DNA from: Candidatus Latescibacterota bacterium
GTDB taxonomy: Bacteria > JAAXHH01
Direction of reading: 5' to 3'
Length of the DNA stretch: 64,000 nucleotides
Assembly: GCA_022822725.1 (NCBI GenBank)
Contig: JAJEAN010000007.1
Location: 1,060,382 to 1,124,381, forward strand
Position numbers and translations under genes: made by a program. The notes below the pieces were generated by a model. The model was not told the origin of the DNA and did not search any database. It saw only the letters and a list, made by a program, of their open reading frames with translations. The number at the start of each line of letters is the position of its first letter. The stretch's first letter is position 1. This document shows, piece after piece, positions 18,755-21,773 of this stretch.

Positions 18755-18783
18755 AGAACAGGCAAAGGGAGGAGAGATTAGAT

Positions 18784-20289
18784 ATGGATTACAACGGCCT
18801 GCTGGTCGCGACGCTCGATGAAACGCTCGGGACCGCCATTGCCGAGTGCGGCGGAAAACCCGTCGTCGCCAGGGCGGACGACCCGGAAGGCGTGGAAGCC
18901 TTTCTGGATCGCCTGTCCAGGGAAGACATCGCCGTGTTGTTACTGACGGAACCCGGCCATGTCCGGGCGCTTTTCGAACGCGCGGCCGCAACCGGCCGGC
19001 TGGAGGTACTGCTGGATACCATCAGGCAGGTGGCCGTCGGCTCCGCTGGCCCCGCGTGCACGGACGCCTGGAGAAGCCATCATCTCTCGGTCGACTTCGA
19101 GCCCGACGGGACGGGAGGAGAATCGCTCGTGGCGGGCATGGCCCGGTTGGCCGGCTACCTGGTCAACAAGAAACGCACCGCCGTGGATGGAGGCGTAGAC
19201 ACCTCCTACTGGCAGCGAATCGACATGCGGTGGCATTTCGATAGCGATCCGTACGGTACCCGGGGGGAGTCCGCCTTTCTCAGGGCGTGCCGCCGTGAAC
19301 CGACGGAGTATACGCCTATATGGCTTCTGCGCCAGGCCGGCAGGTACCAGCGGGCCTACAGGGAGCTCAAGTCCGACCTGGATTTCCTGGACATGTGCAA
19401 GACTCCCGAACTCACCGCCGAGATTACCTTGATGGCCGTGGAACGCCTCGGCGTGGACGCCGCCATCCTCTTCGCGGACATCCTGCCCCTGCTGCAGCCG
19501 ATGGGACTTCACCTGGAGTACGTCGCCGGCCAGGGACCGGTCATCGGCAATCCGATTCGTTCGGCCGGGGCCGTGGATCAACTGGAAGAAGCGGGACCGG
19601 AGTCGCAGCACTTCGTCTACGAGGCCATCCGCCTGGCCCTGCCCGCGCTGCCGCCCCATATTCCGCTCATCGGCTTTTCAGGCGCCCCGTTCACACTGGC
19701 CGCCTATGCCATCGAGGGACGGAGTTCGAAGGACTTCAGGCATCTGAAGACGTTCATGTATTCCGATCCTGGGGCCTGGCACGCCTTCATGGAGAAGCTG
19801 GCCCGGGCCGTTACGGCCTACCTCAACGAACAAATCGAAGCAGGCGTCCATGCCGTGCAACTCTTCGACAGCTGGGTCGGCTGCCTGTCGCCCGACGATT
19901 ACCGGACCTACGTCCTGCCCCACACCGGGTACGTGTTTTCGCATCTGACCCCCGGTGTCCCCAAGATCCATTTCGGGGTCGCCACCGGCGCCCTGCTTGG
20001 CCTGATGCGTGAAACGGGCGGGGACGTCATCGGCCTGGACTGGCGCGTGGACCTGGCCGACGCGTGGCAGGGGCTTGAACACGACGTGGCCGTGCAGGGG
20101 AACCTCGACCCCCTGATCCTCTTCGCCTCGCCCGATGTGATCCGCGAACGCGCGGCGGCCGTCCTGCACAAGGCCGCGGGGCGGCCCGGACACATCTTCA
20201 ACCTCGGTCACGGTATACTGCCCGGTACGCCGGAAGACCACGTCATCGCCCTGGTGGACGCCGTGCACGAACTGGGCAGCGATCGATGA
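18784..20289 (+). CDS. hemE: HemD-like half domain fused to uroporphyrinogen decarboxylase HemE
   Basis: Residues about 163-500 are a complete HemE, which converts uroporphyrinogen III to coproporphyrinogen III: FLRACRREPTEYTPIWLLRQAGRYQRAYREL with the substrate-binding Arg residues, FADILPLLQPMGL, and FSGAPFTLAAYAIEG. The first 130 or so residues are extra. NGLLVATLDETLGTAIAECGGKPVVA, DIAVLLLTEPGHVRALF and QVAVGSAGPACTDAWRSHHLSVDFEP follow the order of conserved segments in one half of uroporphyrinogen-III synthase (HemD). The start is well set by AGGGAGGAG. The extension is therefore real coding sequence, but half a HemD may not be active. It overlaps hemY by 4 bp (ATGA). Confidence 0.9.
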   Translation: MDYNGLLVATLDETLGTAIAECGGKPVVARADDPEGVEAFLDRLSREDIAVLLLTEPGHVRALFERAAATGRLEVLLDTIRQVAVGSAGPACTDAWRSHHLSVDFEPDGTGGESLVAGMARLAGYLVNKKRTAVDGGVDTSYWQRIDMRWHFDSDPYGTRGESAFLRACRREPTEYTPIWLLRQAGRYQRAYRELKSDLDFLDMCKTPELTAEITLMAVERLGVDAAILFADILPLLQPMGLHLEYVAGQGPVIGNPIRSAGAVDQLEEAGPESQHFVYEAIRLALPALPPHIPLIGFSGAPFTLAAYAIEGRSSKDFRHLKTFMYSDPGAWHAFMEKLARAVTAYLNEQIEAGVHAVQLFDSWVGCLSPDDYRTYVLPHTGYVFSHLTPGVPKIHFGVATGALLGLMRETGGDVIGLDWRVDLADAWQGLEHDVAVQGNLDPLILFASPDVIRERAAAVLHKAAGRPGHIFNLGHGILPGTPEDHVIALVDAVHELGSDR

Positions 20290-21773
20290 AGGTCGTCGTG
20301 GTCGGCGGGGGCATCGCGGGATTGAGCGCGGCTTACCGGCTGATGGAAACGAAGCGTCCCGGCCTGGACGTGACGCTGCTCGAGGGATCGGATCGATTCG
20401 GCGGTACGATACGCACCATCGAGCTTGGCGGATGCCTGGTCGAGTTGGGACCGGATGCCTTTCTGTCCACCAAGCCCTGGCTATTTGATCTCGCCCGACG
20501 CCTGGGTGTGGCGGACCGGATCATCCCCACCGCGAGCGCCCATCGCGGTGCCCACGTGGTCCATCGCGGCAGACTCCATCCGCTGCCCGACGGGTTCCTG
20601 ATGATGGCGCCCACCCGCTTCGGCCCCATGGTAACCACATCCCTTTTTTCGTGGCCGGGCAAGGTCCGTTGCGCGCTGGACCTGGTACTGCCGCGCGGCC
20701 CGGCAAACGACGATGAGAGCCTGGGGGCCTTCGTGCGCAGGCGGTTCGGCGGCGAGGTGCTGGAACGCGTCGTACAACCCCTCATCGGAGGGATCTACGC
20801 GGGAGATCCGGACACCCTTAGTCTGAAGGCTACGATCCCGCGTTTCCTCGAGATGGAAAAGCGTTACCGCAGCGTCATCAGGGCCATGGTCGCACAGCGT
20901 CGCGCGGCCGCGAAAAAACAGGAGGGTGCGGCCGAGAAGCACCGGGAAGGTGAACCCGCGAAGCACCAGGAGAACGCGTCCACGGGTACCACGGGCACCA
21001 CGGGCACCACGGGCAGCGGCGCGCGGTACGGCGCACTGAACTCCTTCGACCGGGGCATGGAAACCATCGTGGAGGCATTGTTGCAGCACCTTCCTTCCGA
21101 CGCTGTGCACAGCCGTTCCGAAGTGACCAGCCTGACCCGTGAAGGGATCCGCTGGCGGCTGAGCTGCGATGACGGGCGGCAATTCGAGGCGGACGCGGTC
21201 ATACTCGCCCTGCCTTCTCGAAAGGCCGCGGCGCTGCTTCACGGTACCGCCGCGGACCTCGCCAGCGAACTGTCGGCCATTCCCCATGCATCGTCGGCCA
21301 TCCTGAACCTCGTGTACCGTCGATCGGACGTGCCGCATCCCTTGGACTGCTTCGGATTCGTGGTGCCTGCCGTAGAGGAACGAAAGATCATCGCTTGCAC
21401 CTTCAGCAGCGTCAAGTTTCCGAATCGCGCGCCTGAGGGCCGTGTCCTGTTGCGTGCGTTTTTCGGCGGGTCCCTTCAGCGGGAATTGCTGGAGGAGAGC
21501 GACGACGCGCTGCAGCAGATGGCAGGCGAAGAGTTGCGGGACCTTATGGGCATCGAAGCCGCTCCCCTTGACTCCGCGCTTGCCCGGTACCCGGACGCCA
21601 TGCCCCAGTACCTGGTCGGACATGTCGATCGCATGGAGCGGATCGATTCGCTGCTGGAACGTCACCCGGGGCTGGCGTTGGCAGGCAATGCCTATGTTGG
21701 CGTGGGCCTGCCCGATTGCGTGCATTCGGGCGAACTGGCGGCGGACCGGATTCTCACCGGACCAGCCTTCTGA
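20286..21773 (+). CDS. hemY: Protoporphyrinogen/coproporphyrinogen oxidase, HemY type
   Basis: FAD-dependent oxidase making protoporphyrin IX (or coproporphyrin III). The FAD-binding VVVVGGGIAGLSAAYRL is at the N-terminus, followed by GGTIRTIELGGCLVELGPDAFL. The C-terminal flavin-contacting segment LALAGNAYVGVGLPDCVHSG closes the fold. An insertion around residues 200-245 is rich in Lys, Glu, Thr and Gly and contains a 9-bp tandem repeat; HemY proteins normally have a shorter, ordered linker there. It is translationally coupled to hemE, and its 3' end overlaps the opposing aminotransferase gene by 20 bp. Confidence 0.92.
   Translation: MKVVVVGGGIAGLSAAYRLMETKRPGLDVTLLEGSDRFGGTIRTIELGGCLVELGPDAFLSTKPWLFDLARRLGVADRIIPTASAHRGAHVVHRGRLHPLPDGFLMMAPTRFGPMVTTSLFSWPGKVRCALDLVLPRGPANDDESLGAFVRRRFGGEVLERVVQPLIGGIYAGDPDTLSLKATIPRFLEMEKRYRSVIRAMVAQRRAAAKKQEGAAEKHREGEPAKHQENASTGTTGTTGTTGSGARYGALNSFDRGMETIVEALLQHLPSDAVHSRSEVTSLTREGIRWRLSCDDGRQFEADAVILALPSRKAAALLHGTAADLASELSAIPHASSAILNLVYRRSDVPHPLDCFGFVVPAVEERKIIACTFSSVKFPNRAPEGRVLLRAFFGGSLQRELLEESDDALQQMAGEELRDLMGIEAAPLDSALARYPDAMPQYLVGHVDRMERIDSLLERHPGLALAGNAYVGVGLPDCVHSGELAADRILTGPAF
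20982..21017 (+). repeat. In-frame 9-bp tandem repeat in hemY
   Basis: Four 9-bp units (acgggtacc, acgggcacc twice, acgggcagc) encode Thr-Gly-Thr triplets inside a low-complexity insert of hemY. Confidence 0.9.

Follow-up and report, generated by a model that had tools for sequence, protein, structure and literature searches.

A predicted single HemD-type lobe fused to uroporphyrinogen decarboxylase in Latescibacterota

What is half of a uroporphyrinogen-III synthase (HemD) doing in front of a uroporphyrinogen decarboxylase (HemE)? The question is raised by an open reading frame of 501 amino acids (positions 18784-20289) in a stretch of Candidatus Latescibacterota DNA 64,000 nucleotides long, which we call the window. 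The initial annotation had described this frame as half of HemD fused to HemE and had offered two roles for the extension, the channelling of uroporphyrinogen III or a docking or regulatory remnant. The frame was confirmed at its position, and the motifs that had been quoted from the extension are present.

The C-terminal part of the protein was readily assigned. Residues 163-496 (19270..20271, plus strand) constitute the HemE domain, which matched PF01208 with an E-value of 1e-122. TIGR01464 matched the frame over the full length of the profile with 391.6 bits, above its cut-off of 302.95. All five HemE motifs were intact (RQAGR at 183, FADIL at 230, FTLAAYA at 303, FDSWVG at 361, and LGHGI at 474), and the core residues of the active-site motifs were invariant in the alignment. 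We take these positions to fill the catalytic Asp, Tyr, Ser, and His roles known from human UROD. Judged by its intact motifs and profile match, the window protein is probably an ordinary, active HemE. The gene that follows (20286..21773, plus strand) encodes an FAD-dependent protein of the amine-oxidase family (PF01593, E 2e-64), probably a protoporphyrinogen oxidase. The two genes overlap by four bases, the ATG of the second lying across the stop codon of hemE, and a comparable oxidase gene lies 3' of hemE in L016/L040 and in G012.

To understand the extension, we considered where translation begins. A Shine-Dalgarno-like GGGAGG (18767..18772, plus strand) precedes the ATG at 18784, and other species of its genus carry GA-rich sites at the equivalent position upstream of the start. 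No ribosome site was found upstream of the internal Met148 in the window or in its congeners. Pairwise comparisons within the genus gave dN/dS values of 0.04-0.13 for HemE, 0-0.14 for residues 123-161, mostly 0.17-0.33 for residues 32-122 (low end 0.13; 0.53 in one near-identical pair), and 0.14-0.67 for residues 1-31. A start at Met148, which would leave the protein without an extension, was ruled out by the missing ribosome site, the GGGAGG before 18784, and the dN/dS of the extension, which was below 1. Thus, the ribosome sites at the 18784 start and the dN/dS values indicate that the extension is translated and is under constraint, which is strongest in the linker. This linker, together with the end of the last helix, spans residues 123-161 (NKKRTAVDGGVDTSYWQRIDMRW; 19150..19266, plus strand) and evolves as slowly as HemE. 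It contains the motif KKR..A...GVDT..W.R..M.W (residues 129-150, window 19168-19233), which is common to two fusions that retain a full-length HemD-like domain, L017 and L096, the latter from another family group (L096-L098).

The resemblance of the extension to HemD was evaluated with profiles. Direct comparison gave a weak match to PF02602 (E 7e-5; 22.5 bits, under the gathering cut-off of 27.5), and a phmmer search of the extension directly against the PDB returned no HemD match. A relative with the same half-lobe architecture (L040) passes the PF02602 gathering cut-off with 34.2 bits. When the C-terminal halves of fused HemD-like domains were made into a profile, it matched window residues 32-119 with 44 bits (i-E 1e-14). 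Residues 32-122 (18877..19149, plus strand) were assigned by this profile, by AlphaFold2, by structural matching, and by dN/dS as the C-terminal half of a HemD-like domain, completing one flavodoxin-like lobe. Chance similarity to HemD was ruled out by the 44-bit match together with the structural match. G352 had been a candidate for a further half fusion and was rejected, as reading its frame revealed a HemE extension without HemD-like motifs.

Structure prediction, another of the proposed checks, placed the extension among HemD lobes. The AlphaFold2 model of residues 1-140 had a pLDDT of 88.7 and a pTM of 0.83, with 8 sequences only in support and the other four models at 65-71; in the full-length model the HemE part was poor and unusable. 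Five Thermus synthase entries topped the PDB comparison of the predicted lobe (Z 16.4-17.1, 1.7-1.9 Å, 116-120 residues). The best of these was 1wcx, Thermus uroporphyrinogen-III synthase (Z 17.1, 1.7 Å, 119 residues), whose aligned chain range of 8-259 comprised both chain ends, i.e. lobe 1, with lobe 2 skipped. In the human and Thermus structures, the C-terminal half and the N-terminal segment of HemD together make up lobe 1. Next in the comparison, with Z-scores of 12.1-12.6, came HemD from human and Pseudomonas and an engineered half HemD, 6TH8 (12.4), and the best non-HemD fold reached 9.8. By prediction, the extension folds as a single, complete HemD-type lobe with a flavodoxin-like architecture, comparable to 6TH8. 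Sequence, profile, and predicted structure therefore agree that the annotated half of HemD is one whole lobe.

Residues 1-30 (18784..18873, plus strand) correspond to the first beta-alpha-beta of the lobe and are best explained, according to a composite profile, as a HemD-like N-terminal segment. Joining this segment to the C-terminal half raised the score to 54.5 bits, versus 44.2 for the C-terminal half alone. The mid segment, which is the homologue of this N-terminal segment in the second repeat, brought no gain when used instead (44.1 bits), and none of 200 shuffles of residues 2-30 reached 54.5 bits. The signal was decisive only within the window's genus and was weak or absent in the relatives L014 and L040. 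Within these bounds, residues 1-30 look like the very start of a HemD-like domain. Because residues 32-120 match the second half and residues 1-30 the domain start, excision has apparently removed lobe 2 together with the strand that bears the conserved tyrosine. The alignment shows this strand (VPVYRW or PYRH) in full-length domains, both fused and stand-alone, but not in the window, where the extension of about 130 residues forms a single predicted lobe in place of the two of HemD. We propose that the half-lobe Latescibacterota descend from a common ancestor in which the inserted lobe 2 was lost by internal deletion, so that the ~30 N-terminal residues came to adjoin the C-terminal half; lobe 1 would then have survived as a self-contained unit. 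A simple 5' truncation at mid-HemD appears less likely than internal deletion, given the 44.1 versus 54.5 bits in the genus.

The HemD superfamily includes both canonical synthases and paralogues, and we asked which of them donated the lobe. NF005568 was the best NCBIfam match for the full-length domains L017, L019, and L116, with its cut-off exceeded only by three frames of 408-428 aa; we take this family to represent the HemD-like domain of actinobacterial NnaR. In a tree of 51 full-length HemD domains, NnaR, Thermus, and fused domains split from canonical HemD with an SH-aLRT of 100, and the Thermus synthase was the nearest solved relative of the fused full-length domains. The tree was built from full-length domains, and the window's place in this family rests on the match of its lobe to the second half of the fused domains. 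On this sequence evidence, the lobe is derived from the HemD-like paralogue family (NnaR, Thermus U3S, and HemE-fused domains), not from canonical HemD. A canonical origin was ruled out by the tree and by the NCBIfam ranking of the full-length relatives. The winged-helix DNA-binding domain of NnaR type is absent, and the protein consists of the HemD-like lobe and HemE.

Other members of the family occurred in settings of their own. On two Deinococcus plasmids (L180 4992-5828 and L181 3992-4825), a stand-alone HemD-like gene lies directly 3' of nirB-nirD and overlaps nirD, an arrangement that ties the family to nitrite reductase, as in NnaR. A Thermus-like genome (G034; L052, L170) encodes a canonical-type HemD match together with a synthase of the solved-structure type, which raises the question of which HemD makes uroporphyrinogen III in Thermus.

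Could the lobe nonetheless act as a synthase? The separate full-length hemD that the initial annotation had suggested looking for is present in the window's genome as a 568-aa SUMT-HemD fusion (L001 1381-3087, minus strand). A hemC-like C-terminal frame lies just 5' of it. Canonical HemD was also found in G003, G005, G012, G013, and G015, and in all tested fusion genomes except G227, whose congeners G086 and G356 both have it, and G046, where the second HemD match was partial. In the window's genome, the canonical HemD fused to SUMT could supply uroporphyrinogen III. The lobe alone is unlikely to be a uroporphyrinogen-III synthase, since the HemD active site sits between two lobes and the tyrosine strand is gone.

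Direct transfer of uroporphyrinogen III from a fused HemD activity to HemE has precedents in its favor: consecutive tetrapyrrole enzymes are known as fusions (table passage of PMC4921024), and the full-length fusions retain both lobes and a VPVYRW-type tyrosine strand, such that channelling is plausible in those relatives. The window protein, however, lacks one lobe and the strand, and its genome encodes the canonical SUMT-HemD. Because the half-lobe genomes searched also carry canonical HemD, synthase activity and channelling by the lobe are unlikely. Moreover, the domain falls in the family of NnaR, and in Streptomyces the HemD domain of NnaR reportedly has no HemD activity (PMC6277429, PMC11162112). 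We consider channelling in the window protein scarcely credible; of the two roles first offered, a docking or regulatory remnant better fits a single lobe accompanied by a separate HemD.

Kinship to NnaR raises a regulatory alternative, in which the lobe would bind a tetrapyrrole intermediate and tune HemE; such a role has been suggested for the HemD domain of NnaR. NnaR has been proposed to sense hydroxymethylbilane or uroporphyrinogen III (PMC11162112). In the window, however, half of the ligand pocket is gone, and the tetrapyrrole-side loops of half-lobe proteins are no better conserved than the rest of the lobe (permutation p 0.64), which argues against a retained ligand site. By the same permutation, no selected ligand surface was seen on the lobe. 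We regard this regulatory role as very improbable. HemE is a homodimer in known structures. Its dimer could let two single lobes pair up and restore a two-lobed, HemD-like unit able to bind uroporphyrinogen, a possibility to which we assign a similarly slight chance. Were it true, lobe pairing would be a natural reversal of the gene duplication behind HemD. Catalysis by such a pair is further disfavored by the missing tyrosine strand and the ordinary conservation of the loops.

The history of the fusion was traced among relatives, which do share it, as the initial annotation had asked. Full-length HemD-like-HemE fusions were identified in 10 of 386 sampled genomes from six family groups, with the window's order as a seventh, for at least seven family-level lineages (L017, L019, and L091-L099). 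In L017, from the window's order, a full HemD domain lies 5' of HemE in proteins of 659-687 aa; in L019, from another phylum, it lies ahead of HemE in a protein of 640 aa. The half-lobe form was seen in Latescibacterota only, in the window's genus and two further genera (G013 and G015), representing two families altogether. Within the genus, all genomes had the extension except one whose contig begins inside hemE. A sister genus of the same family (G012) has a syntenic hemE, located between rsmI and the oxidase gene, without the extension. In the HemE tree, the full-length L017 was sister to the half-lobe clade (97/84), and G012 fell inside this clade with weak support. These two placements make an order from full-length to half to no extension likely. 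Since the sister genus does without the extension, the lobe is dispensable over the long term. A single origin of the whole fusion was not rejected (p-AU 0.114). In one lineage, which we guess to be planctomycete-like, the HemD-like gene is separate but adjoins hemE. In G287 (L145 / L116), a stand-alone HemD-like gene lies immediately 5' of hemE; the fusion may have arisen from such an arrangement or been split into it.

Our data favor, as the probable reading, an ordinary HemE that carries a single paralogue lobe left by internal deletion and retained in a structural or docking, non-catalytic role. Purifying selection on the core fold, and especially on the linker to HemE, would be consistent with such a role. 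Slow decay would likewise fit residues 1-31, which are weakly constrained (dN/dS as high as 0.67), and the origin of residues 1-30 is supported within the window's genus only. A functionless lobe in decay, retained since the start codon and ribosome site of hemE lie 5' of it, is thus the main competitor, and one that we judge possible but unlikely. It would account for the loose constraint on residues 1-31 (0.14-0.67), the tetrapyrrole-side loops without special conservation, and the series of full fusion, half lobe, and no extension inside one phylum. It sits poorly with a well-formed predicted fold, with dN/dS values of approximately 0.2-0.3, with a linker constrained like HemE, and with the persistence of the half lobe in two further genera and, within the genus, in all genomes whose contigs extend far enough to include it.

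No description of a HemD-HemE fusion was found in the literature searched, in keeping with the initial annotation, although domain databases may record the architecture. The table passage of a fusion survey (PMC4921024) lists SUMT-HemD and HemC-HemD and does not contain HemD-HemE. This widespread HemD-like-HemE fusion is apparently undescribed, and it bears on the role of HemD-like domains without synthase activity, such as that of NnaR.

Among known systems, the full-length fusions (L017, L019, L091-L099) share with the window protein their domain order, HemE, and a homologous second HemD half, and L017 and L096 also share the linker motif. Unlike the window, with its one lobe, they retain lobe 1, lobe 2, and the conserved tyrosine strand of VPVYRW type. 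SUMT-HemD and HemC-HemD resemble it in joining HemD to a neighboring tetrapyrrole enzyme. NnaR (Rv0260c, MSMEG_0432, SCO2958) belongs to the same HemD-like paralogue family but combines two lobes with a winged-helix DNA-binding domain and has no HemE. The synthase of Thermus thermophilus (1wcw, 1wd7, 3d8n) is the closest solved relative, and its lobe 1 superposes on the predicted lobe (Z 17, 1.7 Å), although the enzyme is two-lobed and free-standing. HemD is regarded as a two-lobed fold to which a flavodoxin-like ancestor gave rise through segment swap, duplication, and fusion, and a single lobe folds alone in the laboratory (6TH8; PMC8250049, PMC8416435). The window lineage looks like a natural case of this step in reverse, which would make the model of HemD-fold origin testable on a natural protein. 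The nearest counterpart is 6TH8 itself, the engineered half HemD of 'Reconstructing the Origins of the HemD-like fold' (Toledo-Patino et al. 2019), likewise a single flavodoxin-like lobe (Z 12.4); 6TH8 was made in the laboratory, whereas the window's lobe is natural and joined to HemE.
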